The position numbers and the translations under genes are program-made. The notes under the pieces were generated by a model. It searched no databases. It was not told the DNA's origin and saw only the letters and a list, made by a program, of their open reading frames with translations. A stretch of DNA of 64,000 nucleotides from an uncultured Pelagibacteraceae bacterium. GTDB lineage: Bacteria; Pseudomonadota; Alphaproteobacteria; Pelagibacterales; Pelagibacteraceae. Shown here piece after piece: positions 2 to 14,434 of the stretch. Numbering within the stretch: the stretch's first letter is position 1; every line of letters begins with the position of its first letter. The DNA lies in NCBI GenBank assembly GCA_902524945.1, contig CABZFF010000002.1, positions 1-64,000 of the forward strand. Direction: 5' to 3'.

Positions 2-301
2 TATTTAATGATGGCTATAGAAATTATTTTAATTTTACTTTCAGTAAACGGAATAGGTTTTGAACTTCAAATGCTTCAAAACAGAATAACTATGTTTTTA
101 TTACATTTTTTATATTACATGCCTGTTATTTATTATTTAAGCAAAGATGAGATTTTTTATAATAATTCTATAAATAAAAGAAATTTGTCTGGAAAAGTTG
201 TGATTATTTTATATTATATATTTAACAAATATAAAAATTTATATTTATTATTTTTCACTTTTCTCATAATAGTTTTTTTAACTTTATCGATAAATATATG
301 A
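2..301 (+). CDS. C-terminal fragment of a multi-pass membrane protein (partial at left edge)
   Basis: The frame is open through the left edge, so the first in-window ATG is probably internal and this is the tail of a longer protein. The visible part has two or three hydrophobic segments separated by a short basic loop and ends in a hydrophobic helix. Its stop codon overlaps the ATG of the following dehydrogenase by four bases, which suggests one operon with the sugar-modification genes that follow. A polysaccharide polymerase, flippase or membrane glycosyltransferase would fit the context, but no diagnostic motif is visible. I do not recognise the family. Confidence 0.55.
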   Translation, partial: YLMMAIEIILILLSVNGIGFELQMLQNRITMFLLHFLYYMPVIYYLSKDEIFYNNSINKRNLSGKVVIILYYIFNKYKNLYLLFFTFLIIVFLTLSINI

Positions 302-1311
302 TTCAAAATTATTCTTTAAAATATATCAAACCTAGAAAATTAGTTTTTTATAGTTCACGGATAAATTTAAAAAAAAATGATGTATTAATCGAGGTAAAAA
401 GTTGTGGAGTTTGTGGTAGCGATCTCAAAATTTATAATGGTAAAAATAAAAGAGTAAAAAAAAATACAGTCATAGGGCACGAAATATCAGGTAAAATTAT
501 AAAAACACCAAAAAATCAAAACTATTTTAAAATTAATAGAAATATTGCTCTTGGGGCAGATATTGAAAATAAAAATAATAAAGACTTTGCTTTAGGACAT
601 GAAATTGATGGTGGTTTTCAAAAGTACCTTAAAATTAATTATAAACTTTTACTAAAAACTCCTCATTTTATAACTAAAAAAAAGATAGATTATGATTTAG
701 CTTCTTTAGCTGAGCCACTAGCATGTTGTCTCAATGGATTTGAACAAATTAATTTTAAATCAAATTATGATGTAGTAATTTTTGGCGCTGGAAGTATTGG
801 GCAAATAATAGCAAAATTAAGCGTTTATTTCAGATGTAGAAAAGTTTTTCTTATAGATAAGAATAAGTTCAAGTTAAAAAATGGAGTTAAAAATAAAAAA
901 ATAATAAAATTAAATTTTAATCAATTAAAAAAAAGAATTAGTAAAAATACTAATAAAAATAGAATAAAATTTATATTTGTAGCTTGTAGTTCTTTAAGTG
1001 CTCAAAAACAGGCAATAGATATTGCACAAAATGACTCAAGTATAAATTTTTTTGCAGGTTTAAAAAAAACGAGCGGAAAAGATCCAGTATTAAATATAAA
1101 TACGAATAGGATACATTATAAACAAATCAAGATTGTTGGTTCACACGGTTCTAAATTTAAACATCTTAAAAGGGCTGGTGATTTATTAATTAACAAAAAA
1201 ATCAAACTAAAAGATATAATTTCTCACGTTTTCAACATAAAAGATTATAGAAAAGCATTTCAAAAGTTAATTTCTGGAAATTCTCTTAAGATAATTATAA
1301 AACCTAACTAA
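298..1311 (+). CDS. Medium-chain zinc dehydrogenase lacking the structural-zinc loop
   Basis: Member of the medium-chain dehydrogenase/reductase family, which oxidises or reduces sugar alcohols and their phosphates with NAD(P). Catalytic zinc ligands are visible as Cys39 in the GVCGSD motif, His61-Glu62 (GHE) and Glu139 (AEP). A Rossmann motif GAGSIG lies at 163-168. The four-cysteine structural-zinc loop, expected near residues 85-105, is absent and replaced by an Asn/Lys-rich segment. It starts inside the previous stop codon (ATGA) and is followed six bases later by a pentulose-phosphate-epimerase homologue. Context suggests it works on a polyol or ketose phosphate for surface glycan synthesis. 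The substrate is inference. Length 337 residues is normal. Confidence 0.85.
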   Translation: MIQNYSLKYIKPRKLVFYSSRINLKKNDVLIEVKSCGVCGSDLKIYNGKNKRVKKNTVIGHEISGKIIKTPKNQNYFKINRNIALGADIENKNNKDFALGHEIDGGFQKYLKINYKLLLKTPHFITKKKIDYDLASLAEPLACCLNGFEQINFKSNYDVVIFGAGSIGQIIAKLSVYFRCRKVFLIDKNKFKLKNGVKNKKIIKLNFNQLKKRISKNTNKNRIKFIFVACSSLSAQKQAIDIAQNDSSINFFAGLKKTSGKDPVLNINTNRIHYKQIKIVGSHGSKFKHLKRAGDLLINKKIKLKDIISHVFNIKDYRKAFQKLISGNSLKIIIKPN

Positions 1312-1316
1312 AAGAC

Positions 1317-1991
1317 ATGTACAAAAATATAAAATTATCTGCAAGTTTAATGTGTGTTGATTGGCTTAATTTAAAAAGCCAAATATCCGATTTGGAAAGT
1401 AACGATATTGATTACATTCATTACGATATTGTGGATGGCAATTACGCTCCTGATTTTACAATGGGAACAACAATTATCGATACAGTGAGAGAGTTTACAA
1501 GATTACCAGGCCATTACCATTTGATGGTAGAAGAACCAATGAGGTTATTTGAAAATTTTAAACTCTCAAAAAATGAAATTTTTACTATTCACCAAGAAAC
1601 CTCAAAAAATTTACACAGAGACTTGATTGATATAAAAAAAAAATCTCAAGTAGCTGCCGCTATTTCTCCTGCGACACCTTTAGAGCATTTAGAATATGTT
1701 CTAGAGGAATTAGACAATGTTTTAGTATTAACAGTAAATCCTGGTTTTAAATCACAAAAAATGATACCACAAGTTATACGTAAAATTGATAGTCTCAAAA
1801 ATTTGATATCTAAAATGAGTTTAAAAACAACTATAACAGTTGATGGAAATGTAAACAGTAATACTATACCTGACTTTATAAAAGCAGGGTCAGAAATCCT
1901 TGTTTTAGGTTCTTCTGGACTTTTTAAAAAAGATCTTACTATCAAAAAAGCTGTAGAGGAAATTAAAGAGTCTATAGATAAAGTTTTATGA
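1317..1991 (+). CDS. Ribulose-phosphate 3-epimerase family protein
   Basis: A 224-residue TIM-barrel protein of the ribulose-phosphate 3-epimerase family, which epimerises ketose phosphates at C3. The expected active-site set is present: Ser10, His35 and Asp37 (H-x-D), His68 (HLM) and Asp176 (VDGNV). The phosphate-binding region reads VNPGF near 140 and LGSSGLF near 198. Several loops diverge from housekeeping Rpe, for example DGN in place of DGG. Its stop overlaps the start of the next isomerase gene by four bases. Placement among dehydrogenases and nucleotidyltransferases argues for a dedicated glycan-precursor enzyme (pentulose, tetrulose or allulose phosphate), though it could also serve as the cell's Rpe. 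I therefore assign no gene symbol. Confidence 0.85.
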   Translation: MYKNIKLSASLMCVDWLNLKSQISDLESNDIDYIHYDIVDGNYAPDFTMGTTIIDTVREFTRLPGHYHLMVEEPMRLFENFKLSKNEIFTIHQETSKNLHRDLIDIKKKSQVAAAISPATPLEHLEYVLEELDNVLVLTVNPGFKSQKMIPQVIRKIDSLKNLISKMSLKTTITVDGNVNSNTIPDFIKAGSEILVLGSSGLFKKDLTIKKAVEEIKESIDKVL

Positions 1992-2896
1992 TAAAAAATT
2001 CAATTAAGTTAAGTGTCAATACCGGTTTTGCTGTAAATAGAATTATAAGTAATGAAAGTTTTGTTCAATTTGTAAAGAATAATTTGAAAATCGAATATAT
2101 TCAACCAACCTCAGATTGGTTAAATTTATTTATGTCAGATAAATATACTTTAAAAAATATAAATAATCTTAATAAAATTTTAAATAAGTATGATATAAAA
2201 GTTAATAGTTGTTTCACCGGCGCATTCACACGACTTAATCACCTTGCTCATCCTGATAAGGATCAACAAAAACATTGGATAAGGTATTTTAAAAATTTTA
2301 TTGATTTAAGCATTGATCTTGGAGCAAATTATGTTGGAAGTCATTTAGGTATTCTTTCTTATGATGATAATAAAAAAAGAAATGATATTCTTACTAAAAG
2401 AGTTATAAGAAATTGGCACATTTTAGGTGAGTATGCTTTTAAAAAAAAATTGAAATCTTTAATATGGGAGCCAATGTCTATTTCAAGAGAATTTGGAGAA
2501 ACAATAAAAGAGTGTAAAAAAATACAAATTTTATTAAACAAGAAAAAACCTTCTAACTTTAAACTATGTCTTGACGTTGGTCATGGTGATATAAATTCAA
2601 AAAATAAAAAAGATTATGATCCTTATTATTGGCTTAATTCTTTTGTCAAAGAAAGCCCAGTAGTACATATAAAACAAGTTCACAAAGGTAGTTTTGGTCA
2701 TTTACCGTTTACAAAAAAAAATAATTCAAAGGGAATTATTGATGCTAAAAAAGTTATCAATATTATTCAAAAAAAAAAAGATGGGGATACCGAACTTGCA
2801 TTTGAGCTCTCATTTAAAGAAAGAGACCCAATAGATAAAAACTTGAAAAAAGATGTAATATCGTCAGTAAAATATTGGAAAAAGTTTCTTAATTGA
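1988..2896 (+). CDS. Xylose-isomerase-like TIM-barrel sugar (phosphate) isomerase/epimerase
   Basis: A 302-residue TIM-barrel protein of the sugar phosphate isomerase/epimerase (AP-endonuclease-2-like) superfamily. The metal tetrad can be read as Glu161 (WEP), Asp196/His199 (DVGHGD), His227 (VVHIKQ) and Glu273 (FELS). Members isomerise or epimerise ketoses or aldoses using a divalent metal. It is translationally coupled (ATGA) to the upstream epimerase, so the two probably act in consecutive steps on the same sugar phosphate. I cannot tell the substrate from sequence. It is not an endonuclease candidate on context. Confidence 0.82.
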   Translation: MIKNSIKLSVNTGFAVNRIISNESFVQFVKNNLKIEYIQPTSDWLNLFMSDKYTLKNINNLNKILNKYDIKVNSCFTGAFTRLNHLAHPDKDQQKHWIRYFKNFIDLSIDLGANYVGSHLGILSYDDNKKRNDILTKRVIRNWHILGEYAFKKKLKSLIWEPMSISREFGETIKECKKIQILLNKKKPSNFKLCLDVGHGDINSKNKKDYDPYYWLNSFVKESPVVHIKQVHKGSFGHLPFTKKNNSKGIIDAKKVINIIQKKKDGDTELAFELSFKERDPIDKNLKKDVISSVKYWKKFLN

Positions 2897-2911
2897 TTTT
2901 AAAAATCATTA

Positions 2912-3685
2912 ATGAATATAGTTATAACATGCGCTGGAAAATCAAATAGATTTAAAAAAGAAGGCATAAATACACCAAAATTTTTATTACCGCTTGGAGA
3001 AAGTACAGTAATTTCAAATATTTTAGATACTTATGATGATAATGATAATTTTCACTTAGTTATAACTAACAAACAGTTAGATCAAAATCCAAATTTAAAA
3101 TCTTATTTAAATGATTTAAAAAAGAACATTTATTTAAATATTATTAAAGACCATAACCTTGGTCCAACTTGTAGCGCTATACAAGCTAAAAGCTGTGAAT
3201 CAAAGAAAGATATTATAATTTCTTACTGTGATTTTTTAATAGATTGGGACTACAAAAAATTTAAAAGACAAATTTATGAATATGATTATGGAATTACTTC
3301 TTTTAAAGGATTTCATCCAAGTTCGTTTTCAGGCACCTTATATTGTTATCTAAAAGTAAAAAATAACCATATTATAAATCTCAGAGAAAAAAAATCTTTC
3401 ACTAAAATACCAAGTAATGAATTTGCATCTGCAGGATCATACTTTTTTAAAAACTTTGATCTATTTAAAGAGTATGCAAAAAAAGCAATTTATTCTAAAA
3501 AATTCAAAAAAGAATATGGAGAAATTTATACTTCCCTTCCTTATCTGATTCTTGTGAAAGAAAAAAAAGAAATTTTAAACTTTAAAGTTAATAAGTTTGT
3601 ATCTCTAGGAACCCCAAAAGACTATTATGAATATCTTAATTGGAAAAATTTTTTTCAATTAACAACTCATTCAAAAAATTTATGA
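2912..3685 (+). CDS. Sugar/polyol-phosphate nucleotidyltransferase, first of a tandem pair
   Basis: A 257-residue nucleotidyltransferase-fold protein. The N-terminal nucleotide-binding loop reads ITCAGKSNRF followed by TPKFLLPLGE, a variant of the usual G-x-G-x-R...PK signature. An SYCDF segment near residue 108 resembles the metal-binding acidic turn of the family. Such enzymes join NTP and a sugar- or polyol-1-phosphate, or another phospho-compound, to make an activated precursor. The last residues (YLNWKNFF) closely match the end of the next gene product, so the two appear to be diverged tandem copies. Nucleotide and substrate are unknown. Confidence 0.8.
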   Translation: MNIVITCAGKSNRFKKEGINTPKFLLPLGESTVISNILDTYDDNDNFHLVITNKQLDQNPNLKSYLNDLKKNIYLNIIKDHNLGPTCSAIQAKSCESKKDIIISYCDFLIDWDYKKFKRQIYEYDYGITSFKGFHPSSFSGTLYCYLKVKNNHIINLREKKSFTKIPSNEFASAGSYFFKNFDLFKEYAKKAIYSKKFKKEYGEIYTSLPYLILVKEKKEILNFKVNKFVSLGTPKDYYEYLNWKNFFQLTTHSKNL

Positions 3686-4431
3686 TAAAAAACTTAATGA
3701 TACCTATGGGAGGAATAGGAAAAAGATTTAAAAAAGAAAATTTTTCAACTATAAAACCTCTTATAATGATTGAAAAAAAAAGTATTTTAGAAGAGTCAAT
3801 TAAAGAGTTACCCGATGCAGGTAACAAAATAGCTATTTTAAATAAAAAAATATATAGTAAATATCCTATCTTTAGAAAAATTTTAGACAAAAATAATATT
3901 AAAAAATTTCTTTTAAATCAAAACACCTTAGGTCAGTCTGATACCTGCTATAAGGCAAAGAATATGATTAATGAAAAGGATGATCTTTTCATACACTCAT
4001 GCGACTATGTAATGAAATATTCTAATTCAAAATTTAAAAAACTGTGCTCTAATTGCGACGTTATTATTTTTACATACAAGCTCAAGTCATCATTAGTAAG
4101 CGATTATAATGATTACGCATATTGTAAAGAACAGAAGGGAAATGTTTTGAAAATTGTAGAAAAAAAAACTATTTCTAAATTCCCTCAAAACGATCAGATG
4201 GTAATCGGCACTTTCTGGTTCAAAAAGGCTTCAGATTTTTTCTTATCTCACGAAAGAGCATTAAAAAAAGAAAAATTTATAAATAATGAGCTTTATATTG
4301 CAAATAATATAAATGAATTGATTAAAAAACAAAAAAAAGTAAAAGTTTTTGAAGTTTTGTATTGGAAAAATTTAGGGGATTATTTTAGTTATAACCAGTA
4401 TATATATTGGAAAAATTTTTTTAAAATATAA
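3682..4431 (+). CDS. Sugar/polyol-phosphate nucleotidyltransferase, second of a tandem pair
   Basis: A 249-residue nucleotidyltransferase. I place the start at the ATG overlapping the upstream TGA (ATGA), because the glycine-rich loop IPMGGIGKRF begins only five residues later. An upstream in-frame ATG at 3640 would add 14 residues inside the previous gene. The loop and a following KPLIMI segment match the NTP-transferase fold. An HSCDYV turn parallels the CDF turn of its neighbour, and the protein ends in YIYWKNFF. It probably activates a different substrate of the same pathway, or forms a heteromer with the upstream paralogue. Both of these are inference. Confidence 0.8.
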   Translation: MIKNLMIPMGGIGKRFKKENFSTIKPLIMIEKKSILEESIKELPDAGNKIAILNKKIYSKYPIFRKILDKNNIKKFLLNQNTLGQSDTCYKAKNMINEKDDLFIHSCDYVMKYSNSKFKKLCSNCDVIIFTYKLKSSLVSDYNDYAYCKEQKGNVLKIVEKKTISKFPQNDQMVIGTFWFKKASDFFLSHERALKKEKFINNELYIANNINELIKKQKKVKVFEVLYWKNLGDYFSYNQYIYWKNFFKI

Positions 4432-4433
4432 TT

Positions 4434-5513
4434 ATGATAGCATTATCCCTTTTACAAAATAATAAATTAAAATTAATAAACAAAAAACTCTCAAAAAAAG
4501 TTCTTGCAAACCAGTGTAGAATAGAAATATTATATTCAGGAATATGTGCTTCTGATATACCGAGAGCCTTTGAGTCAATGGCATACAGATATCCTTTAAT
4601 TATGGGTCACGAATTTATTGGCAGAGTAATAACTGTAGGAGTTAAATGTAAAAATTTTGAAAAAGGGGACATTGTATCTGCTTTCCCTTTAATCCCTTGC
4701 TCAGCTCAAAATACTAAAAAAAGCTGTGTTTATTGCGACGAAAAAAAATATAATTTATGTGATAATTATGATTATTACGGCTCAAGAAGAGATGGCTCTT
4801 TTTGCGAAGTAATGGACGTTAATGAGTGGAATCTTTTTAAATTAAAAAAAAAACATAATCTAAAACTATATTCCCTAATTGAACCTACAGCTGTTTCATT
4901 CAATATAATTGAAAATTTGAAAAAAAATTTAGGGAATAAACTTGATATTTTAATTCTAGGAGCTGGCTACATTGGTCAAATAGTATCTAGAATATTAAGT
5001 AGTCAAGGTAAAAAAAATAATATTTATATTTTAGATAGAAATAAATTTAAGTTAGATTTTGTTAAAAAATATTCTTTTAAGCAAATTTTAGTTTCAAAAA
5101 AAAACTTTAAAAAAGAGAATTTAGTTTCACAATTAAAGTCCAAATTTGATATAGTTATTGAATCAACAGGTAAAGATACTAATTTTTTAAATGCTTTGAA
5201 TTTTGCTAAAAAAGACGGAACTGTAATTTATTCAGGAAATATAGATAAAAAATTAATATTTTCAAAAAATCAGGTTAGTGATATTTTGAGAAAACAATTA
5301 ACGATAAAAGGTATTTGGAATTCATCATTTAAATCTAAAATAGATAATTGGAAAAAATCAGAAAAATTTATATCTAATAATTATGGCATGGATCAATTAA
5401 TCACTCATGTGAGTGAATTAGATGGGGCTGCTGATTTGTTAAAAAATATCTATTTAAAAAAAAAGGGTAAAATAAAGAATAATTACTTAAAAGGTTTAAT
5501 TAAAAGTTTTTAA
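4434..5513 (+). CDS. Medium-chain zinc dehydrogenase with intact structural zinc site (polyol/sorbitol-dehydrogenase-like)
   Basis: A 359-residue medium-chain dehydrogenase. Catalytic zinc ligands are Cys38, His59-Glu60 (GHE) and Glu150. The structural zinc cysteines are present at about 89, 98, 101 and 109, unlike the other dehydrogenase at the start of this cassette. The NAD(P)-binding motif GAGYIG is at 176-181. It starts two bases after the preceding nucleotidyltransferase, so the two are co-transcribed. A ketose-phosphate to polyol-phosphate reduction coupled to nucleotide activation would parallel TarJ/TarI, but this is an analogy and not a homology claim. Its TAA shares a TTAA palindrome with the stop of the convergent membrane-protein gene. 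Confidence 0.85.
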   Translation: MIALSLLQNNKLKLINKKLSKKVLANQCRIEILYSGICASDIPRAFESMAYRYPLIMGHEFIGRVITVGVKCKNFEKGDIVSAFPLIPCSAQNTKKSCVYCDEKKYNLCDNYDYYGSRRDGSFCEVMDVNEWNLFKLKKKHNLKLYSLIEPTAVSFNIIENLKKNLGNKLDILILGAGYIGQIVSRILSSQGKKNNIYILDRNKFKLDFVKKYSFKQILVSKKNFKKENLVSQLKSKFDIVIESTGKDTNFLNALNFAKKDGTVIYSGNIDKKLIFSKNQVSDILRKQLTIKGIWNSSFKSKIDNWKKSEKFISNNYGMDQLITHVSELDGAADLLKNIYLKKKGKIKNNYLKGLIKSF

Positions 5514-6499
5514 ACTTTTTTTCTTTGTTGCGAAAAGAAATAAATTGAAGCAAATATAAGTGGAAGAAGCAATATTCTAACAGATATATTATTTAATGGA
5601 GTAGCTATAAAGAAAACTAAAAAATAAATTACCAACATTGCAAGCAACACTTTGTTCATTTGATCTGCTTTAATTAGGTAATAAAAAGCTAACCCAAAGG
5701 GAAGCAAAAAGTTTAAAATTGATATTTTAATTAATGAGATAATATTAATTCTGAAAATATTATGTAAATCTATATGACCTGTTTGATGTTCGAGAGGTAT
5801 GAAATATTTTGGATTAATAATACAACTTATAATATTAAAATTTAAAAATAAAAAAATCACTCCAGTAATAATATAAATTACTGCTAATTCTTTAAATTCT
5901 TTATTAAAAATAAGCCAACTTAATAATATTATAAATCCACTCTCCCGATTCAAGACCGCCAAAATACCAGAAATAGCAAATAGAACAATTTTTTTATTTT
6001 TACTTGCGTAAAGACACAAACTTAAAAAAAACATTTCAAAAATTGAATATGAATATTCAGACAGATAACTTTGAAAAACAAAAGTAATATATAATAAAAA
6101 AAGTAAAGTATATTGATGATTAAAAGAAAAAGTTCTGTTTAATATTATGAGTGTTAAAAAAATTACAAAACTGTGTAAAAAAATATTTACATAATATGGT
6201 AAAATATTGCTTACTTTTTCAGAGGCTAAAAATATTTTTTGTAAAAAAAGATCTTTTATCCACCTTACCTTATGTCTATCTGAAAATTGTCCTGTAATTT
6301 CACAATCTCTATTTAAAGAAGAATAGGTATCAGAAGAAGTTAATTTTTGAGAATAATTAATTTTTGCATTAAATTGGTCAAATTTTGTGTCCTCTAAATG
6401 TAAATGTATTTGGTTTACAAAAACTATACATAAAAAAAAGAAAATAATAGATCCTAAGATAAAATTTTTAATTTGATATTTTGAAAAAAAAGAATTCAT
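5510..6499 (-). CDS. Multi-pass membrane protein of unknown function
   Basis: A 329-residue protein with an N-terminal transmembrane helix, then a soluble stretch of about 70 residues (roughly 30-100) containing two cysteines, then about eight hydrophobic helices. The helix-rich body with short polar turns, and an Asn-Arg-Glu (NRES) turn near residue 185, resemble GT-C-type glycosyltransferases or polysaccharide polymerases. No catalytic motif is certain. It lies convergent to the polysaccharide cassette and is transcribed away from the small ORF at 6546. I do not recognise the family. A role in surface glycan assembly is inferred only from location. Confidence 0.7.
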   Translation of the reverse strand: MNSFFSKYQIKNFILGSIIFFFLCIVFVNQIHLHLEDTKFDQFNAKINYSQKLTSSDTYSSLNRDCEITGQFSDRHKVRWIKDLFLQKIFLASEKVSNILPYYVNIFLHSFVIFLTLIILNRTFSFNHQYTLLFLLYITFVFQSYLSEYSYSIFEMFFLSLCLYASKNKKIVLFAISGILAVLNRESGFIILLSWLIFNKEFKELAVIYIITGVIFLFLNFNIISCIINPKYFIPLEHQTGHIDLHNIFRINIISLIKISILNFLLPFGLAFYYLIKADQMNKVLLAMLVIYFLVFFIATPLNNISVRILLLPLIFASIYFFSQQRKKV

Positions 6500-6545
6500 A
6501 AGTATTAATTTTTATAAAAAGATTATATAAATAGCTACTAATAAA

Positions 6546-6665
6546 ATGATAGAATTTTTTAAAAAAAATAAAAGGTTAATATTTATAATATTAGTTATCG
6601 CTTTTATAGAATTAAGTGGATATGGGATACTAGCATCGCTATCTAGGTTACTTAACGCGCTCTAA
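6546..6665 (+). CDS. Putative 39-residue single-pass membrane protein
   Basis: An ATG at 6546 opens a 39-codon frame ending with TAA at 6663-6665. The product has a basic N-terminus (FKKNKR) and one hydrophobic stretch of about 20 residues, then a short polar tail (SRLLNAL). The frame fills most of the gap between two minus-strand genes. It ends by overlapping the end of ygfZ by 18 bases, the same arrangement as every other convergent pair in the window, which supports it being real. No ribosome-binding site is obvious, and an AT-rich divergent promoter region precedes it. No family is recognised. Confidence 0.5.
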   Translation: MIEFFKKNKRLIFIILVIAFIELSGYGILASLSRLLNAL

Positions 6666-7532
6666 AATTTTACATTCTTTATTGCTTGCTAATAATATTT
6701 TATCTTTAAAATCTTCAAGATTAGGTTCTAGAACTTTAATTAATCCAAAAGGGTAAGGTTGATCAATAAGTATTTTTCCTATTTTAATATTATTAAAAGT
6801 AATTTCATCACCAATATTTAATTTTTCAGTTGAAGATATGGGTAACAATCTTCTTCTAAGTTTATTTTTTAATTTCATCCTTGCAGTATTTTCTTGCCCT
6901 ACAAAACATCCTTTTTTAAAATCAATGGCCTTAAAAGCCTCAAAATTTGCTTCTAAACCAAACAATTGATCTTTTAAATTTACTAATCCCTTTTCAGGCA
7001 CTCCTAATTCATGAGCTAGAGAATAGTATTCTTTGCTGTCAATAATATTGAGACTTAGTTTTTTAATTGTTAAATAAAGTTTTTCCAGATTTGAGATCAT
7101 TCTTGCTCCTAAGTCTTTATTTCTTGGATCTAAAAAAAAAGGTGTATCTCTGTAAGTAATAGTATTTTCATTAGACTTTAATTCTTTTTGTAATTCTTGA
7201 AATTTTGAATCGTTTATTACTCCAATAACGAATTTAGAAGAAAAGTCCTCAATTTCAACTTTTGATCTTAATTTGTATTTTGATAAATCTTTTATTAGCT
7301 CTCTTGTGGAGCTCTCGCTACAGTCTAATAAGTATCCTCTATTATTATGAATTATAAAAAATTCATTCAAATATTTACCTTGAGGAGTCAACAAGGCTGC
7401 GAAAATAGAGTTTTTATTAGAAACTTTATTAATATCATTTGTAATTATATTTTGGAGAAAGTCTTTAGCATCTTCTCCACTTACTAAGATTACACCCCTT
7501 TTTTCTAAAATTACAACTTGATCTTTTTTCAT
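6648..7532 (-). CDS. ygfZ: YgfZ/IBA57-type folate-binding Fe-S assembly protein
   Basis: A 294-residue GcvT-related protein. The family signature K-G-C-[FY]-x-G-Q-E is present as KGCFVGQE at 207-214. The N-terminal half shows the GcvT fold (LQNIITNDI near 26-34 and LTPQGKYL near 48-55). The family binds tetrahydrofolate and supports maturation of some Fe-S enzymes, including the tRNA thiolation enzyme MiaB. The gene is divergent from pyrC across a 37-base AT-only gap that must hold both promoters. Length and motif are normal, so the assignment is firm. Confidence 0.93.
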   Translation of the reverse strand: MKKDQVVILEKRGVILVSGEDAKDFLQNIITNDINKVSNKNSIFAALLTPQGKYLNEFFIIHNNRGYLLDCSESSTRELIKDLSKYKLRSKVEIEDFSSKFVIGVINDSKFQELQKELKSNENTITYRDTPFFLDPRNKDLGARMISNLEKLYLTIKKLSLNIIDSKEYYSLAHELGVPEKGLVNLKDQLFGLEANFEAFKAIDFKKGCFVGQENTARMKLKNKLRRRLLPISSTEKLNIGDEITFNNIKIGKILIDQPYPFGLIKVLEPNLEDFKDKILLASNKECKILERVK

Positions 7533-7569
7533 AATTGTTACTTATACAATATATTATATATTATAAAAT

Positions 7570-8883
7570 ATGTCTGATAATTATAGTCTCATTATTAAAA
7601 ATGGATCCTGTTATATTGATGGTAATTTGATAAAATCTGATATTGGTTTAAATGAAAATAAAATTAAAAAGATAGGGAGTATAGAAGAAAATAATTCTAA
7701 AGTTTACGATGCATCTGGCAAAGTAGTTTTACCAGGAATCATAGACACTCAAGTACATTTTAGAGAACCTGGTTCTACTGACGCGGAAGATTTAGAAAGT
7801 GGAAGTAGAGCCGCAGTTCTTGGAGGAGTAACATCTTTGTTTGAGATGCCAAACACTAACCCTCCAACAGCAAATTTAGTTGAGTTTGAAAAAAAATTAC
7901 AAGCCGCAAAAAATAGGATGCATACTAATTATGCGTTTTATTTTGGAGCAACTCCACAAAATACTGAACAACTTGCTCAACTTAAAAATGTAGAAGGCTG
8001 TTGTGGAGTTAAACTTTTTGCAGGATCTTCGACAGGTAATCTGTTGGTGGACAAAGAAGCGGATATTGAAAAAGTGATTTCTAGTAGTGACAGGATAGTT
8101 TCAATTCACTCTGAGGATGAAGATATTATTAAATTAAGAAAAAAATTTATAAGACAAGGAGATGTGCACTCTCATCCTGAATGGAGAAATGTAGAATGTG
8201 CAATATCTTCGACTCGTAGAGTTGTAAAAATCGCAGAAAGATATAATAAAAAAATTCATGTCTTACATGTCACCACCAAAGAAGAGGTCGATTTTTTAGC
8301 TATGCACAAAAAAAATGTTACCTTTGAAATTACTCCTCAACATTTAACTCTGTATGCACCAGATTGTTACGATAAATTAGGCACTTACGCTCAAATGAAC
8401 CCGCCCTTAAGATCGAAAGATCATTATGATCGTCTGTGGGTTGCAATAAAAAACAATGTTGTAGATATCCTTGGGTCAGATCACGCTCCTCACTTAAAAA
8501 CAAATAAAGATAAAGAGTATCCGAATACTCCCTCGGGAATGCCAGGTGTTCAAACTATTTTTCCAGTTATGATTGATCATGTGAACAATGGAAAACTAGA
8601 GATAAATCAACTCATAAATTTAATGTGTGAAAATCCATGTAAAATTTTTGGGATTAAAAATAAAGGTTTTATTAAAGAGGGTTTTGATGCAGATTTGACG
8701 ATAGTTGACATGAATAAAGAAGTTACTATAAAGAATGAAATGATCGCTAGTAAATGTGGATGGACACCCTTTCACAATTATAAAGTAAAAGGTTTCCCTG
8801 TAGGAACAATCATAAACGGTATTTTAGTAATGTCTGAGGGAAAAATATTAGTAGAGTCTAAAGGGCTACCTTTAAAGTTTTAA
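7570..8883 (+). CDS. pyrC: Dihydroorotase (class I type)
   Basis: A 437-residue amidohydrolase that closes carbamoyl-aspartate to dihydroorotate in pyrimidine synthesis. Visible signatures are the substrate-binding FREPG at 64-68 after His63, MPNTNPPT near 95, the probable carboxylated-lysine region GVKLFAGS, metal histidines in SIHSED and HVLHVT, and SDHAPH. The usual metal motif H-x-H before FREPG is Q61-V-H63, so one canonical zinc ligand is replaced by Gln. I believe some alphaproteobacterial dihydroorotases share this form, but a non-pyrimidine cyclic amidohydrolase cannot be fully excluded. Convergent with prpE, overlapping by 12 bases. Confidence 0.88.
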   Translation: MSDNYSLIIKNGSCYIDGNLIKSDIGLNENKIKKIGSIEENNSKVYDASGKVVLPGIIDTQVHFREPGSTDAEDLESGSRAAVLGGVTSLFEMPNTNPPTANLVEFEKKLQAAKNRMHTNYAFYFGATPQNTEQLAQLKNVEGCCGVKLFAGSSTGNLLVDKEADIEKVISSSDRIVSIHSEDEDIIKLRKKFIRQGDVHSHPEWRNVECAISSTRRVVKIAERYNKKIHVLHVTTKEEVDFLAMHKKNVTFEITPQHLTLYAPDCYDKLGTYAQMNPPLRSKDHYDRLWVAIKNNVVDILGSDHAPHLKTNKDKEYPNTPSGMPGVQTIFPVMIDHVNNGKLEINQLINLMCENPCKIFGIKNKGFIKEGFDADLTIVDMNKEVTIKNEMIASKCGWTPFHNYKVKGFPVGTIINGILVMSEGKILVESKGLPLKF

Positions 8884-10770
8884 AATATTATTATCTTTTA
8901 AGTCCTGTTTTATTTCATCTAAAATAGCAGGATCATCTATAGTTGCTGGCATTTTATAAGGTTCATTATCTGCAATTTTTCTAACAGTTCCTCTAAGCAC
9001 TTTTCCTGATCTAGTTTTAGGCAATCTCTTTACTACAATTGCTATTTTAAATGCTGCAACAGGCCCAACTTTTTCTCTAACCATTTTTACACATTCACTA
9101 ATAATATCTTTTTTATCTTTGGTTACTCCTGCCTTAAGCGCTAGCAATCCAATTGGTATCTGACCTTTAAGTTTATCAGCTATTCCTATTACTGCACACT
9201 CTGCAACATTTGGATGTTCAGCTAAAACTTCCTCAATAGCCCCAGTTGATAGTCTATGGCCTGCAACATTGATAATATCGTCTGTTCTGGACATGATCCA
9301 AACATAACCATCTTCATCAATGTGTCCCGCATCATAAGTCTGATAATATCCTGGATAAGTTGTCATATAATTCTCTTTATATCTTTTATCCGCTCCCCAT
9401 AATGTTGGAAACGTTCCTGGAGGAAGAGGGAGCTTTACAACAATATCTCCCATTTTACCGGGACCTACTTCCTTACCTTCAGAATTTAAAACTTTTAAAT
9501 CATAGCCTGGAACTGGTTTAAAAGCTGATCCGTATTTAACAGGTAAATTTTCTATACCTGTACAACTTGAAGTTATTGCCCAACTTGTTTCAGTTTGCCA
9601 CCAATGATCGATTACAGGTGAGTTAGATAATTTTTCAAACCATTTTATTGTGTCAGGGTCAGCCCTTTCACCTGCAAGAAAAAGTTTATCAAACCTACTT
9701 AAATCGTATTTTTTAAAAAATTCTCCATTTGGATCCTCTTTTTTAATGGCTCTTATTGCTGTTGGTGCAGTAAAAAGAGATTTCACTTTGTGTTCTGAAA
9801 TTACTCTCCAAAAAACTCCTGCATCAGGAGTCCCTACCGGTTTTCCCTCAAACAAAACTGTCGTACATCCATAAAATAATGGACCATACACTATATATGA
9901 GTGTCCAACTATCCAACCAATATCACTTGCAGACCACCACACGTCCTCTGGTTTGATATTGTAAATGTTTTTCATAGTCCATTTTAATGCAACTATATGT
10001 CCACCTATATCACGAACTATTCCTTTTGGAAGACCTGTGGTTCCAGATGTATAAAGAATATAAGCGTAGTCATTTGCATTCATTTTTTCGCACTCAGCAG
10101 GCTTTACACCTTTGTGAGCATCGTTCCAGGTAATGTCAATTACAGGATTTAATTCTGCTTTATCCTTTTCTCTTTGAAAAATTATACATTTTTTTATTTT
10201 ATGATTTGCTAACTCCAACGCTTTATTAACTAAAGGTTTATAATAAACAGTCCGTCCAGGCTCATAGCCACAAGATGCGGTGACAAGTATTTTGGCTTTA
10301 GAGTCATCAATCCTACTTGCAAGTTCGTTTGCAGCAAAGCCACCGAATACAACTGAGTGAACTGCACCAATTCTTCCACATGCTAGCATAGCTACTACTG
10401 CCTCTGGAATCATAGGCATGTAGATTATAACTCTGTCACCTTTATTCACGCCTTGATTTTTTAAAACTCCAGCAAATAAAGCAACTTTTTCTTTCAACTG
10501 ATTATAAGTAATATTTTCTTTTGAACCAGTTATGGGGCTATCATAAATAATCGCAAGCTTTTCACCTTTTCCCTCATCGATATGTAAGTCCAAAGCATTA
10601 TAGCAGGTGTTTGTTTCTCCATCTTCGAACCATTTAAAGAAAGGAGGATTATCTGAATTTAAAATTTTTGATGGTTTTTTGTACCAAAATACATCATCTG
10701 AAATTTCTTTCCAAAAATCTTCTCGATTTTTGATAGATTTTTCATAAATTTCGTCATATTTTTGAGTCAA
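8872..10770 (-). CDS. prpE: Propionate-CoA ligase (propionyl-CoA synthetase)
   Basis: A 632-residue acyl-adenylate-forming enzyme of the acetyl/propionyl-CoA synthetase family. The AMP-binding signature YTSGTTGLPKG is at 240-250 and the catalytic lysine is in TRSGK at about 590. The N-terminal region (EIYEKSIK, NPPFFKWF, NTCYNALD, AIIYDSPITG) matches PrpE rather than Acs as I recall them. It converts propionate, and possibly acetate or acrylate, to the CoA ester, with ATP. The start is TTG at 10770-10768, supported by a run of seven G residues five bases upstream. Divergent from proteorhodopsin across a 228-base spacer. Confidence 0.9.
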   Translation of the reverse strand: MTQKYDEIYEKSIKNREDFWKEISDDVFWYKKPSKILNSDNPPFFKWFEDGETNTCYNALDLHIDEGKGEKLAIIYDSPITGSKENITYNQLKEKVALFAGVLKNQGVNKGDRVIIYMPMIPEAVVAMLACGRIGAVHSVVFGGFAANELASRIDDSKAKILVTASCGYEPGRTVYYKPLVNKALELANHKIKKCIIFQREKDKAELNPVIDITWNDAHKGVKPAECEKMNANDYAYILYTSGTTGLPKGIVRDIGGHIVALKWTMKNIYNIKPEDVWWSASDIGWIVGHSYIVYGPLFYGCTTVLFEGKPVGTPDAGVFWRVISEHKVKSLFTAPTAIRAIKKEDPNGEFFKKYDLSRFDKLFLAGERADPDTIKWFEKLSNSPVIDHWWQTETSWAITSSCTGIENLPVKYGSAFKPVPGYDLKVLNSEGKEVGPGKMGDIVVKLPLPPGTFPTLWGADKRYKENYMTTYPGYYQTYDAGHIDEDGYVWIMSRTDDIINVAGHRLSTGAIEEVLAEHPNVAECAVIGIADKLKGQIPIGLLALKAGVTKDKKDIISECVKMVREKVGPVAAFKIAIVVKRLPKTRSGKVLRGTVRKIADNEPYKMPATIDDPAILDEIKQDLKDNNILKL

Positions 10771-10775
10771 TCTTA

Positions 10776-10782
10776 CCCCCCC
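10776..10782 (-). promoter_or_regulatory. G7 tract serving as ribosome-binding site for prpE
   Basis: Seven consecutive G residues on the minus strand lie five bases before the TTG start of prpE. They include a GGGGG core that can pair with the anti-Shine-Dalgarno sequence. The tract decides the TTG start. In such an AT-rich genome a homopolymeric G run of this length is unusual and could vary in length. Confidence 0.5.
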
Positions 10783-10951
10783 AGTTTTTCTTAATTTTCG
10801 TGATTATTTCATAAATATCCCCAAAAAAAAATAGAAAATCCAATAAATATGCGGCTTTTTTGTAAAAAAAACACTTCACTGTAACTTTGTTTTTTACTAA
10901 TGTCCTTCACATATTATTCGGTGGTGAACTTATTTATCACTCGTCCGAGTA

Positions 10952-10965
10952 GTTTATATATAAAC
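10952..10965. promoter_or_regulatory. 14-bp perfect palindrome upstream of proteorhodopsin
   Basis: GTTTATATATAAAC is a perfect 14-base palindrome about 34 bases before the proteorhodopsin start. Its centre is TATATA and could be a -10 promoter element or an operator. The stretch after it is rich in AAAC repeats, which fits an unstructured 5' leader. The region upstream of it (10919-10950) also contains short inverted repeats, including ACTC/GAGT. The promoter role is inferred. Confidence 0.35.
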
Positions 10966-10985
10966 TAAACGAAAACTAAACAAAC

Positions 10986-10993
10986 GAGGGAGG
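10986..10993 (+). promoter_or_regulatory. Strong Shine-Dalgarno of proteorhodopsin
   Basis: GAGGGAGG lies five bases before the ATG at 10999, at optimal spacing. Most genes in this window lack a comparable site, so this marks proteorhodopsin as intended for high translation and fixes its start. Confidence 0.75.
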
Positions 10994-10998
10994 TTTTC

Positions 10999-11769
10999 AT
11001 GAGAAAATTAGGTCTATTTGCTTTAGCAGCTGTTGCCGTTTTAGGTATAACAAGCTCAGCTAACGCAGCGACTGCCATGTTACAAACAAATGATTTCGTT
11101 GGAATATCATTTTGGCTTGTATCAATGGGAATGATAGCGACAACTGTATTTTTCTTTGCAGAAAGAGGAACTGTTGCAGCATCATGGAGAACATCTTTAA
11201 CTGTAGCTGGACTTGTAACAGGTGTTGCATTTCTTCACTACATATACATGAGAGAAGTTTGGGTGAGTACAGGTGACTCTCCAACGGTATATAGATATAT
11301 CGATTGGTTAATCACAGTACCTCTTCAAATGATCGAATTCTATCTAATCTTGGCAGCTGTTAGAAAGGTGCCAACTTCTATATTCTGGAAGCTATTAATT
11401 GGTTCATTAGTAATGTTAATCGGTGGATACCTAGGTGAAGCTGGTTACATACAACCATTTGTAGGTTTCGTAATTGGAATGGCTGGATGGATTTACATCT
11501 TGTTTGAAATATTCTCAGGTGAAGCTGGAACAATGGCTGCCAAAGCTGGTAACAAAGCAATGGCAACTGCTTTCAGCGCTATGAGAATAATCGTAACTAT
11601 TGGTTGGGCGATTTATCCTTTAGGATATATTTTCGGTTACCTGACTGGTGGTGTTGATGCAAATGCTTTAAACGTAATATACAATTTAGCTGACTTTATT
11701 AACAAGATCGCTTTTGGTCTGGTTATCTGGGCAGCAGCAATGCAAAACACAAGATTATCTAGTAGATAA
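10999..11769 (+). CDS. Proteorhodopsin, light-driven proton pump, blue-absorbing type
   Basis: A 256-residue microbial rhodopsin. An N-terminal signal peptide (about residues 1-23, ending SANA) precedes seven transmembrane helices. Functional residues are all present: His80 (the counter-ion partner), Asp102 (proton acceptor, in RYIDW), Glu113 (proton donor, in QMIEFY) and Lys236 (retinal Schiff base, in FINKIAF). The spectral-tuning position equivalent to GPR residue 105 is Gln110, which in characterised proteorhodopsins gives blue absorption. No retinal-synthesis genes are in the window. Codon use looks GC-richer than the neighbours (more AAC, ATC, TTC), and with its strong ribosome-binding site and terminator this suggests high expression as a largely single-gene transcript. 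Confidence 0.97.
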   Translation: MRKLGLFALAAVAVLGITSSANAATAMLQTNDFVGISFWLVSMGMIATTVFFFAERGTVAASWRTSLTVAGLVTGVAFLHYIYMREVWVSTGDSPTVYRYIDWLITVPLQMIEFYLILAAVRKVPTSIFWKLLIGSLVMLIGGYLGEAGYIQPFVGFVIGMAGWIYILFEIFSGEAGTMAAKAGNKAMATAFSAMRIIVTIGWAIYPLGYIFGYLTGGVDANALNVIYNLADFINKIAFGLVIWAAAMQNTRLSSR

Positions 11770-11785
11770 AAGATAACTAACATTT

Positions 11786-11824
11786 AAAGGGCAGGTACAT
11801 TATGTGTACTTGCCCTTTTTTTTT
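11786..11824 (+). terminator. Rho-independent terminator after proteorhodopsin
   Basis: An 11-bp stem is formed by 11789-11799 and 11805-11815, with one G-U pair and a 5-base loop. It is flanked by an A run and followed by nine or more T residues. This is the strongest intrinsic terminator in the window. Only about 20 bases separate it from the next ORF, so downstream expression may depend on read-through or an embedded promoter. Confidence 0.92.
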
Positions 11825-11844
11825 ATACATTTATATTAAATAGC

Positions 11845-11979
11845 ATGGAAATATCTAAACCATACAAAGGAAAAGGCAGAAGAAAAATAAAGAAAATGCC
11901 ATTTACTGTAAAAGGCTATATTTTATACTATGCTTTTTTTTGGGTTGTAATAATCTCAATTTATTTAGCTTACTATTAA
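11845..11979 (+). CDS. Putative 44-residue single-pass membrane protein in the proteorhodopsin-ferredoxin interval
   Basis: An ATG at 11845 opens a 44-codon frame ending at TAA 11977-11979, three bases before the ferredoxin ATG. The product has a strongly basic, glycine-containing N-terminus (residues 5-23, about nine Lys/Arg). One hydrophobic and aromatic segment (residues 25-44, rich in Tyr, Phe and Trp) runs to the C-terminus, giving an inside-positive topology. It is too short for routine gene callers, yet it fills the gap exactly and is spaced for translational coupling with the ferredoxin. No family is recognised. Confidence 0.55.
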   Translation: MEISKPYKGKGRRKIKKMPFTVKGYILYYAFFWVVIISIYLAYY

Positions 11980-11982
11980 TTG

Positions 11983-12303
11983 ATGCCTAAAATTACCTAT
12001 AAAGATTTTCAAGGAGAAAAAAAAACTATAGAGGTTGATAACGGTTTGTCAGTAATGGAAGGAGCTATTCAAAATGACATTCCTGGAATCGATGCTGATT
12101 GTGGAGGATCAATGGCTTGTGCTACTTGCCATGTTTATGTCGAAGAAAAATGGTTTAACAAATTAGAAAAAGCAGAAGATGCAGAGGTTGATATGATTGA
12201 TATGGCATTTGAACCGAAAAAATATAGTAGATTAAGTTGTCAAATAATTATTAATGACGAGTTAGATGGTTTAGAAGTAACTACACCAGAAAAACAAACT
12301 TGA
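11983..12303 (+). CDS. [2Fe-2S] ferredoxin, adrenodoxin type
   Basis: A 106-residue ferredoxin. Cluster ligands are Cys40, Cys46, Cys49 (C-x5-C-x2-C in DCGGSMACATCH) and Cys86, the adrenodoxin/putidaredoxin arrangement. The ATG at 11983 is preferred to a TTG directly before it. It carries single electrons, presumably from the reductase encoded next, whose start overlaps its stop by one base. The acceptor is not evident: a P450, a Rieske oxygenase or Fe-S assembly are all possible. The ferredoxin and reductase following proteorhodopsin is a known SAR11 arrangement. Confidence 0.93.
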   Translation: MPKITYKDFQGEKKTIEVDNGLSVMEGAIQNDIPGIDADCGGSMACATCHVYVEEKWFNKLEKAEDAEVDMIDMAFEPKKYSRLSCQIIINDELDGLEVTTPEKQT

Positions 12304-13316
12304 TGAAAAAAACTGATGTAATAATTATTGGAGCAGGTCCAATAGGACTTTTTGCAGTTCATCAGTTAGGGATTAAAGGTCTTAAAGCAGTTGTTATTGA
12401 TAACCTTGATAAAGTAGGTGGACAATGTATTGAGCTTTATCCAGATAAACCAATTTATGATATTCCTGCAGTTCCAGAATGCACAGGTGAAGAGTTAACC
12501 AAAAGATTGCTTGAACAAATTAAACCATTTAAAACTGAAATATTTTTAGATGAAAGAGTAGATGAAGTCCGCCCAGAAAAGGAAAATTGGGTTGTAAAAA
12601 CAAATAATTCAAAAAAATTTATGGCTCCAAATATTATGATAGCAGGTGGAGTAGGCTCATTTGAACCAAGAAAAATTTCTTTAAAACAGGCAGAAAAACT
12701 TGAAGGAAAATCTGTATTTTATGCAGTAAGAAATAAAGAACATTTTAAAAATAAAAAAATTGCAATTTTCGGCGGAGGAGACTCAGCTCTAGATTGGGCC
12801 TTAGAGCTTTCAAAATATTCAAAAGTTACACTAGTGCACAGGAGAAATGAATTTAGAGGTGCGCAACATACTTTATCAGAATTAAGAAAATTAGAAAAAG
12901 CTGAAAAAGTTATAATTAAAACACCTTGTCAAATAATTTCTTTAGATAATGAAAAAGAATTAAAGTCTATTACAATTAAGTTTGATGATGGAAAAACAGA
13001 AACAATTCCGACTGATATAATGCTTGGGTTTTTCGGTTTGATAATGAAATTAGGTCCAATTGCTGAATGGGGCTTGAACATGGATAAAAAAACTATTGAG
13101 GTTAATCCAGAAAACTTTGAGACCAATAAAAAAGGTATATTTGCAGTTGGAGACATATGTTCTTACCCAGGAAAACTTAAATTAATCCTCTCAGGATTTC
13201 ATGAAGTAGCTTTAGCCTCAGTTGAGTGTTTTAAAAGGGCAAGGCCAAACGAAAAATTCAGGTTTGAGTTCACAACCTCTTCTAAATCAATACAAGAAAG
13301 ACTTGGAAAAAAATGA
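12303..13316 (+). CDS. Ferredoxin-NADP+ reductase, thioredoxin-reductase-like (type 2)
   Basis: A 337-residue two-domain flavoprotein. The FAD motif is GAGPIG at 10-15, and an NADP-binding motif GGGDSALDW lies near residue 157. The typical thioredoxin-reductase CxxC redox pair is absent and an ELYPDKPIYDIPA segment is present, which is diagnostic of the TrxR-like FNR2 subfamily. It probably passes electrons between NADPH and the adjacent ferredoxin. ATG at 12303 shares one base with the ferredoxin stop. A TTG one codon earlier is possible but unlikely. Older annotations often call this thioredoxin reductase. Confidence 0.9.
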   Translation: MKKTDVIIIGAGPIGLFAVHQLGIKGLKAVVIDNLDKVGGQCIELYPDKPIYDIPAVPECTGEELTKRLLEQIKPFKTEIFLDERVDEVRPEKENWVVKTNNSKKFMAPNIMIAGGVGSFEPRKISLKQAEKLEGKSVFYAVRNKEHFKNKKIAIFGGGDSALDWALELSKYSKVTLVHRRNEFRGAQHTLSELRKLEKAEKVIIKTPCQIISLDNEKELKSITIKFDDGKTETIPTDIMLGFFGLIMKLGPIAEWGLNMDKKTIEVNPENFETNKKGIFAVGDICSYPGKLKLILSGFHEVALASVECFKRARPNEKFRFEFTTSSKSIQERLGKK

Positions 13317-13939
13317 TTGAATTACTTACCGCCAATACTCCTAACGGTAAGAAAATATCTATTATGCTTGAGGAGATTAATTTTAAATATAAGGTAACAA
13401 CAGTAAATATAAACAGGGATGACCAATTTAAACCGGAATTCATCAAAATAAGTCCATTCAGAAAAACTCCTATAATTATAGATCATGATAATAATCAAAG
13501 TCTTTTCGAGTCAGGTGCAATATTAATGTATTTAGGTGTAAAAAGCGGAAAATTTTACGACGTCAAAAATAGAACCGTTATTAACCAATGGTTAATGAGC
13601 CAAATGGCCTACGTAGGTCCAATGTTAGGACAGCATCATCAATTCCATCACTATAATCCTGGAAAGAGTAAGTTTGGAGAAGAAAGATATTTTAAAATTT
13701 CTGAGAGAATTTACAATGAGTTAGACGAAAGACTTGAAGCATCTCGATTCTTAGCCGGCAATGATTATTCAATTGCAGATATTGCAACATTTCCCTGGAT
13801 AGCTAGACATGAATGGCATGATATTGGATTGAAAAACTTTAAAGGTTTAGCAAGATGGTATATAGAAATTTCTAATAGAAGAGCAGTGCAGAAAGGTTAT
13901 GATTTATTAAATAAAGGGGAAATTATTCCAAAAATTTAG
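13313..13939 (+). CDS. Glutathione S-transferase family protein
   Basis: A 208-residue GST with an N-terminal thioredoxin fold (TANTPNGKKISIML near residue 5-18, RKTPIIID near 51, FESGAILMYLG near 63) and an all-helical C-terminal domain. The NGKK active-site loop and the C-terminal motif SIADIATFPW resemble the Ure2-like/YfcG-YghU class, which favours disulfide-bond reduction over conjugation. Its ATG overlaps the FNR stop (ATGA), so it belongs to the ferredoxin-FNR operon. Convergent with dksA with a 4-base shared stop region (TTAG). Confidence 0.88.
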   Translation: MIELLTANTPNGKKISIMLEEINFKYKVTTVNINRDDQFKPEFIKISPFRKTPIIIDHDNNQSLFESGAILMYLGVKSGKFYDVKNRTVINQWLMSQMAYVGPMLGQHHQFHHYNPGKSKFGEERYFKISERIYNELDERLEASRFLAGNDYSIADIATFPWIARHEWHDIGLKNFKGLARWYIEISNRRAVQKGYDLLNKGEIIPKI

Positions 13940-14361
13940 TCATCTATGAAGATTTTTTCATCTCTCTCATGTCTTTCTTGAGCCTCAATTGAAAGTGTTG
14001 CTACTGGCCTTGCCATCAGTCTTTTCAAACCAATAGGTTCTCCAGTTTCTTCACAATAACCATAAGTTCCTTCTTTTATTCTTTGTAAAGCAGAATTAAT
14101 TTTTGAAATTAGTTTTCTACTTCTATTTAAAGCTTTCATTTCAACAGATTTGTCCGTGTACGAAGAAGCTTGATCAACTATATCTGCAGAAGACACATTA
14201 TCATCTGATGAGTTAAGCAAATTTCCTAAATTGTTTGATTTTATAATCTCTCTTTTCCAATTTAATAGTTCTTCGGTAAAGAATTTCTTATGTTTAGCAC
14301 ACATGTATTTTTCTTTAGAGTTAGGAGTATATTTTTTTAAACTATTTGTTTTTTTCGGCAT
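13936..14361 (-). CDS. dksA: DksA/TraR family RNA polymerase secondary-channel regulator, single-cysteine type
   Basis: A 141-residue DksA homologue. The coiled-coil tip acids are Asp60 and Asp63 (SADIVDQAS), and the globular region reads YGYCEETGEPIGLKRL...ARPVATLS. Only Cys103 remains of the four zinc cysteines of E. coli DksA, as expected for zinc-independent alphaproteobacterial forms. The family modulates rRNA and amino-acid promoters together with ppGpp. Ends on GST and is divergent from the glycosyltransferase gene across 73 bases. Confidence 0.9.
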   Translation of the reverse strand: MPKKTNSLKKYTPNSKEKYMCAKHKKFFTEELLNWKREIIKSNNLGNLLNSSDDNVSSADIVDQASSYTDKSVEMKALNRSRKLISKINSALQRIKEGTYGYCEETGEPIGLKRLMARPVATLSIEAQERHERDEKIFIDD

Positions 14362-14434
14362 TTTTAAGATTTCGGCGAGTATATGTTTGATTTTTGTCGT
14401 GTCAATAGCTTATAAATTGTAATAATTTCTTTAA

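Follow-up and report, generated by a model that had tools for sequence, protein, structure and literature searches.

Gene content of the cassette and its partners

The window analysed here is a 64,000-nucleotide stretch at the start of contig CABZFF010000002.1 (C2), from assembly GCA_902524945.1 of an uncultured Pelagibacteraceae bacterium of the SAR11 group, and the system in question is a compact set of dehydrogenases, epimerases and nucleotidyltransferases at its left-hand end. Six co-directional open reading frames on the + strand span positions 298-5513, with neighbours overlapping or separated by no more than 16 bp. An initial annotation had described these six genes as a tightly coupled cassette, and their coordinates, direction and families were confirmed, apart from the start of NT2, which we place at the ATG at 3682 that is ATGA-coupled to NT1; the earlier TTG start at 3640 arose as an artefact when open reading frames were called. 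Families were assigned from matches to Pfam, NCBIfam and PDB, as follows.

298-1311, + strand: ADH1, a zinc dehydrogenase of the medium-chain dehydrogenase/reductase (MDR) family, proposed polyol-phosphate/ketose-1-phosphate dehydrogenase (family match, conserved residues)
1317-1991, + strand: Rpe/AlsE-like ketose-phosphate 3-epimerase (Ribul_P_3_epim, PF00834, 176 bits)
1988-2896, + strand: EryC-like TIM-barrel epimerase (AP_endonuc_2), proposed 1-phospho-ketose 3-epimerase (PDB 4k3z, E=1e-58)
2912-3685, + strand: NT1, sugar nucleotidyltransferase of the RmlA/GalU fold (NTP transferase match, model fold)
3682-4431, + strand: NT2, second sugar nucleotidyltransferase (NTP transferase match; ATGA overlap with the NT1 stop)
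4434-5513, + strand: ADH2, MDR zinc dehydrogenase, proposed ketose-5-phosphate 2-reductase (closest to galactitol-1-phosphate 5-dehydrogenase)

The catalytic-zinc ligands of ADH1 (C36/H61/E62) are kept across copies of the module and those of ADH2 are likewise conserved, and the nearest characterised relative of ADH2 has a polyol phosphate as its substrate, which it attacks at the end distant from the phosphate. The Rpe-like protein had been said to possess all active-site residues; this stands for the catalytic set S10, H35, D37, H68 and D176, which is conserved in 16 module copies, but not for the methionine that follows D37 in canonical Rpe, which is not conserved. A separate and higher-scoring housekeeping rpe lies at C4:32065-32658, so the cassette gene is an extra copy. 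The third enzyme, known at first only as a metal TIM-barrel isomerase, is indeed a TIM barrel and can now be named as a homologue of EryC. Its nearest solved relative is Brucella EryC (4k3z), to which the match covers residues 6-299 with the motifs WEPMS-REFGET, HIKQ and ELSFKER in common.

The structural model of NT1 (predicted local distance difference test, pLDDT, 93.6) has 4evw as its best PDB match, followed by GalU, GlmU and RmlA structures. Both NT1 and NT2 conserve the G-x-x-x-RF ... K nucleotide-binding signature and a C-D metal motif, and on our reading of the alignment the second metal aspartate, usual before G-T-P, appears to be replaced in both domains. In most relatives the two are a single fused NT1-NT2 protein. 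Homology of these nucleotidyltransferases to TarI/IspD was rejected in favour of the RmlA/GalU/GlmU fold: matches to IspD (PF01128) occur only on contigs C8 and C3 of this genome, with none in the cassette.

Base 1 of the window is base 1 of the contig, so the cassette is truncated by the contig end, and the idea that the six genes form a set complete in itself had to be given up, as a GT2, a GDPD-like enzyme and membrane proteins also belong to it. Proteins of a SAR11 relative whose cluster is intact (AG-325-I05, locus L044), used as queries against the genome, located these partners on contig C6. Together with the genes that flank the cassette in the window, they are:

C6:639-1340, - strand: GT2 of the polyprenyl-phosphate type (match to L044 protein)
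C6:1393-2007, + strand: small GDPD-like phosphodiesterase (match to L044 protein)
C6:2-652, - strand: N-terminal 217 amino acids of the membrane protein mem (memN, aligned to an intact homologue)
1-301 (open reading frame 8-301), + strand: C-terminal piece of mem (memC, aligned to the same homologue)
5510-6499, - strand: membrane protein within the inserted segment, candidate membrane glycosyltransferase of the module (weak NF046093 match)
6648-7532, - strand: ygfZ-like core gene at the right edge of the insertion (synteny with relatives)

The memN fragment matches residues 26-177, and memC residues 267-364, of an intact 363-aa homologue (L005, genome G187). Because the two align to separate parts of this protein, a gap of ~0.2 kb is placed inside the mem gene, and the split gene together with nadA-ygfZ synteny indicates that C2 and C6 are probably adjacent, head to head, with ~0.2 kb missing. 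On C6, nadA and nadC come after the GDPD-like gene. Once this join is accepted, a double nucleotidyltransferase, a small GDPD and a GT2 stand at one locus here. The GDPD retains H6, R7, E24, D26, H38 and K64 (HR..E.D..H..K), its model matches GDPD structures (7e0v), and this enzyme of the phosphodiesterase fold is probably active. The GT2 is likened to the polyprenyl-phosphate glycosyltransferases ArnC and PpgS.

Distribution and the two forms of the module

NT1 alone served as the query in a scan across 84,980 species genomes, from which 80 loci were kept and the reference proteins mapped onto them; gene content, the common core and the relations between gene sets given below were computed from these. 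The constant core consists of the double nucleotidyltransferase (usually fused), a GT2 of ~235 aa and a GDPD of ~195 aa, often with GtrA. Around this core, 17 of the 80 loci carry ADH1, Rpe, EryC and ADH2, a form we call type B. Besides the present genome it is carried by 17 others, which span about ten phyla and include archaea: SAR11, other Alphaproteobacteria, SAR86, Bacteroidetes, Bdellovibrionales, Gastranaerophilales, Schekmanbacteria, Planctomycetes, Aenigmatarchaeota, Woesearchaeota and Micrarchaeota. On sufficiently long contigs the type B set is full (L044, L045, L046, L048, L051, L052, L058, L062, L068). Joint recurrence in these 17 genomes puts the association of the genes far beyond chance. 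Of 21 gene pairs, 20 also show correlated protein distances (r 0.27-0.83; p<=0.034), the exception being Rpe-GDPD. The proposal that the cassette is co-inherited and serves to provide a surface glycan with an activated sugar or polyol is thus strengthened by the same set recurring beside a glycosyltransferase, and separate inheritance of the six genes, in SAR11 or other genomes, was not borne out.

The possibility that the genes form a catabolic polyol operon of the erythritol or galactitol type draws on the likeness of ADH2 to GatD and of EryC to an erythritol-operon enzyme; the EryC homologue is 35% identical, over nearly its full length, to that of the Brucella/Rhizobium erythritol pathway (EryABCD-HI). 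The module, however, is without EryA, EryB, EryD, EryH and EryI. It has no transporter, kinase or regulator, in contrast to annotated erythritol operons (L195, L196), in which the FGGY kinase, EryB-like dehydrogenase and regulator that are absent beside the cassette eryC are present. Nucleotidyltransferases always accompany the set, as do GT2 and GDPD where contigs allow, and the module EryC copies form a clade apart from the catabolic ones, with branch support of 100/100 and a long branch. Erythritol catabolism was rejected on these grounds, a catabolic operon of any such kind seems extremely improbable, and the cassette proposal survives the comparison.

Type A is the commoner form, found at 56 of the 80 loci and at additional plasmid and class-search loci. 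Here ADH1, Rpe, EryC and ADH2 are exchanged for a phosphoribulokinase/uridine kinase, a HAD protein resembling ribulose-1,5-bisphosphate (RuBP) 5-phosphatase and a class II aldolase. The two sets occur together at none of the 82 loci having either; this exclusion is per locus and is not proven per genome. Seven of the 80 loci, several of them short, have neither set. The type A kinase is a C-terminal phosphoribulokinase domain in 12 of 15 copies, with matches to PDB phosphoribulokinases at E ~1e-40, all 20 HAD copies match RuBP 5-phosphatase, and the aldolase-fold protein retains the metal-site histidines H106, H108 and H169 plus E92. The N-terminal part of the same fusion protein is a GT-C-like membrane domain with weak ALG3/GT87 matches (for example L111:13345-15420), an unusual combination with a phosphoribulokinase.

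The exchange of enzyme sets bears on a CDP-pentitol or polyol phosphate route like those known for TarIJ or CDP-glucitol, in which the dehydrogenases would reduce a ketose phosphate, one nucleotidyltransferase would make a CDP-polyol for phosphodiester-linked repeats, and EryC and Rpe would merely set stereochemistry. Pairs of nucleotidyltransferase and reductase acting on open-chain ketose phosphates do exist, namely HS5.18/HS5.17 of Campylobacter and Mnp1/Mnp2 of S. pneumoniae in the CDP-6-D-glucitol/CDP-D-mannitol pathway, which yields an activated open-chain sugar for a capsule (PMC10918830), and the GDPD could work on polyol phosphodiesters. TarI/TarJ, for CDP-ribitol, likewise combines an MDR-family dehydrogenase with a nucleotidyltransferase in a surface-polymer context. 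Yet type A lacks the reductases and has the same nucleotidyltransferases, GT2 and GDPD, the cassette nucleotidyltransferases fall outside the IspD/TarI family, and activation of a 5-phosphate would leave EryC without an evident role. Compared with the glucitol and mannitol systems, the module has two nucleotidyltransferases (usually fused), extra Rpe and EryC epimerases, a GDPD and a GT2, and its oxidoreductases are both MDR zinc enzymes, with no short-chain dehydrogenase/reductase, and are dispensable in type A. Compared with TarI/TarJ, it has nucleotidyltransferases that fold like RmlA/GalU and adds a second dehydrogenase and a 1-phospho-ketose epimerase. We therefore consider a CDP-polyol route unlikely.

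Several loci show how the module is carried. Yersinia proxima has type A as a lone island next to hut-like genes, where no further polysaccharide genes were recognised. Among 5,426 complete genomes of E. coli, only two have the type A nucleotidyltransferase gene, each time on a plasmid, so that there is no serotype link; a complete type A module (L007) occupies positions 6022-14984 of the 33-kb IncR E. coli plasmid p5-S1-CAM-01-A, near IS26. Phage contigs of up to 318 kb also hold type A parts (L133, L135, L138, L144, L148, L151, L157, L159, L160, L161) in varying combinations of kinase-like gene, class II aldolase, GDPD-like gene and fused NT1-NT2, and among the type A-bearing phage sequences are one inspected contig with T4-like genes such as phoH and Synechococcus phage Bellamy. 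Neither the viral scan nor tblastn against phages found EryC relatives in viral sequences. PADLOC returned weak, irrelevant E1-E2 matches only.

A candidate route from ribulose 5-phosphate to a surface glycan

We think it probable that the module supplies a surface glycan with an activated sugar or polyol. That it is a self-contained decoration module fits with the polyprenyl-phosphate type of its GT2, with the GtrA or GT-C membrane proteins that accompany the core, and with the stand-alone island of Yersinia proxima. In these respects it resembles GtrABC-type O-antigen glycosylation, with a GtrA-like flippase (in type A), a GT2 of the same type, a GT-C-like membrane protein and a compact, mobile, lineage-specific island; it differs in carrying its own precursor pathway. 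GtrA is present at most type A loci and a few type B loci, with none recognised in the SAR11 form. The product might instead be a soluble glycoside, or serve as the head group of a glycolipid. SAR11 bacteria are streamlined and remodel their lipids, and GDPD-family enzymes act on lipid-derived diesters, both of which would suit such a product. The occurrence of GtrA and GT-C in most type A loci, and of GT-C-like proteins in type B, argues against it and fits a surface decoration linked to undecaprenyl phosphate, and we regard a glycolipid or soluble glycoside as improbable.

The substrate is suggested by what the two enzyme sets have in common. Brucella EryC is a tetrulose-4-phosphate racemase (PMC11508834, PMC5992420), labelled as a dehydrogenase in PDB entry 4k3z. 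Its substrate, 3-tetrulose-4-phosphate, renumbers to a 1-phospho-2-ketose, which means that EryC acts on a ketose with its carbonyl next to the phosphate. Type A, as its kinase is a phosphoribulokinase and its HAD protein is like RuBP 5-phosphatase, reads as a route from ribulose 5-phosphate to RuBP and on to ribulose 1-phosphate. A haloarchaeal RuBP 5-phosphatase yields ribulose 1-phosphate, which is next handled by a FucA-type class II aldolase (PMC9700705), and type A resembles that non-carboxylating pentose bisphosphate pathway in three elements: the formation of RuBP, a RuBP 5-phosphatase and a member of the class II aldolase family. It differs in that RuBP would come from phosphoribulokinase and in that the genes sit with nucleotidyltransferases, GT2, GDPD and GtrA, while type B as found in SAR11 lacks all three elements. 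By homology, the carbonyl position of EryC in type B and the kinase/HAD product in type A would both lead to a 1-phospho-pentulose.

For a four-carbon product, EryC and the Rpe-like enzyme would have to interconvert a tetrulose phosphate, and its reduction to the phosphate of erythritol or threitol would precede activation. The nearest characterised relative, EryC, does use a tetrulose phosphate. Nonetheless, the type A phosphoribulokinase and RuBP-phosphatase-like HAD suggest pentuloses, the module EryC is a clade of its own on a long branch, and no erythrose-4-phosphate isomerase of the EryH/EryI type was recognised in the module, so we hold a four-carbon product to be unlikely. The initial annotation had left the choice between a pentulose and a tetrulose phosphate; the pentulose is retained, probably as a 1-phospho-pentulose, and type A points away from the tetrulose.

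For type B, we give an even chance to a route from D-ribulose 5-phosphate to a 1-phospho-pentulose that feeds a gtr-like surface-decoration module; each reaction in it, with its order, chain length, stereochemistry, nucleotide and acceptor, is inferred from the enzyme families. The Rpe-like enzyme would convert D-ribulose 5-phosphate to D-xylulose 5-phosphate, which ADH2 would reduce at C2 to a pentitol 5-phosphate. ADH1 would then oxidise the carbon adjoining the phosphate (C4 of the pentitol 5-phosphate) to give, after renumbering, a 2-keto-pentose-1-phosphate, the two dehydrogenases together thus yielding a pentulose 1-phosphate without moving the phosphate. EryC could epimerise this 1-phospho-ketose at C3, nucleotidyl transfer by NT1/NT2 would follow, with GDPD dealing with a phosphodiester intermediate, and GT2 would transfer the residue to undecaprenyl phosphate; after flipping, the membrane GT-C proteins would pass it to the surface glycan in a gtr-like manner. 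In type A, phosphoribulokinase would make RuBP from ribulose 5-phosphate, the RuBP 5-phosphatase would release ribulose 1-phosphate, and the class II aldolase-fold enzyme would replace the epimerase. Our best reading is that the product is an undescribed activated, nucleotide-linked ketopentose or pentitol donor for surface decoration.

A number of points weigh against this route. The known substrate of EryC has four carbons, and relatives of Rpe/AlsE take five or six; the position of attack by ADH1 is a guess. The type A phosphoribulokinase match scores 212 bits against a curated NCBI cut-off of 236, and the HAD protein, at 168 bits, falls short of the cut-off of 330 for RuBP 5-phosphatase, which was still the family that the scanned members matched best. 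One metagenome-assembled genome, CANQCO01 (Lapin-005 bin11, Gastranaerophilales), has a type B and a type A locus (L050, L106) on different contigs, which means that the two products may differ or that the bin is mixed. Lastly, nothing in the route explains the need for two nucleotidyltransferases or for a GDPD. One rather improbable elaboration is that a nucleotidyltransferase activates pentulose 1-phosphate, GDPD acts via a 1,2-cyclic phosphate to give an anomeric 2-phosphate, and the second nucleotidyltransferase forms an NDP-(C2)-ketose for GT2. If true, this would account for the constant association of two nucleotidyltransferases with a phosphodiesterase, and it would provide a source of pentulofuranose residues such as xylulofuranose, for which we found no description of a donor. 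L-xylulofuranose occurs in Yersinia enterocolitica O:10, and chlorovirus glycans also contain xylulofuranose. We claim no link to either: the published O:10 O-antigen cluster shows no such module, and the large viral contigs with type A genes lack the capsid family of nucleocytoplasmic large DNA viruses (a control that gave no match anywhere), the one contig inspected having phage genes.

Insertion in SAR11 and wider significance

In five genomes of the same genus, nadA lies ~0.26 kb from ygfZ, pyrC, an acyl-CoA synthetase gene and proteorhodopsin. In the present genome the module sits exactly between nadA and ygfZ, and computed synteny places the whole unit as an insertion between them. The membrane gene at 5510-6499, whose product scores 29.6 bits against NCBIfam NF046093 (a cell-surface glycopolymer family with a curated cut-off of 150), was not detected around nadA/ygfZ in the five relatives. 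Genome G187, of another genus, has an identical six-gene order, also beside nadA, and in it genes for a GMC oxidoreductase and a class III aminotransferase (L005:7538-10750) separate the module from nadA. In L044 the module adjoins a folD-like gene. EryC was present in only two of 397 sampled Pelagibacterales genomes and is thus rare in the order. Further along the window, a proteorhodopsin-like gene is followed by ferredoxin and ferredoxin-NADP reductase-like genes (10999-13316), and a gene for a PMT-type membrane glycosyltransferase overlaps a GT2 gene (14435-16674), possibly a second surface-glycan pair.

The initial annotation knew of no pathway with exactly this set of genes, and we likewise found no description of the combination, in either form, in the open-access literature searched (subscription papers being outside its scope). 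What emerges is one precursor-plus-transfer module in about ten phyla of bacteria and DPANN archaea, and partly in large phages, with two forms around a constant core. This natural swap of enzyme sets strongly hints at an activated sugar not yet described. It would place phosphoribulokinase and RuBP phosphatase in glycan synthesis and suggests a route, open to testing, by which surface glycans could acquire ketopentose or pentitol residues. In SAR11, islands of this kind vary between close relatives, and the module is a candidate determinant of phage recognition.

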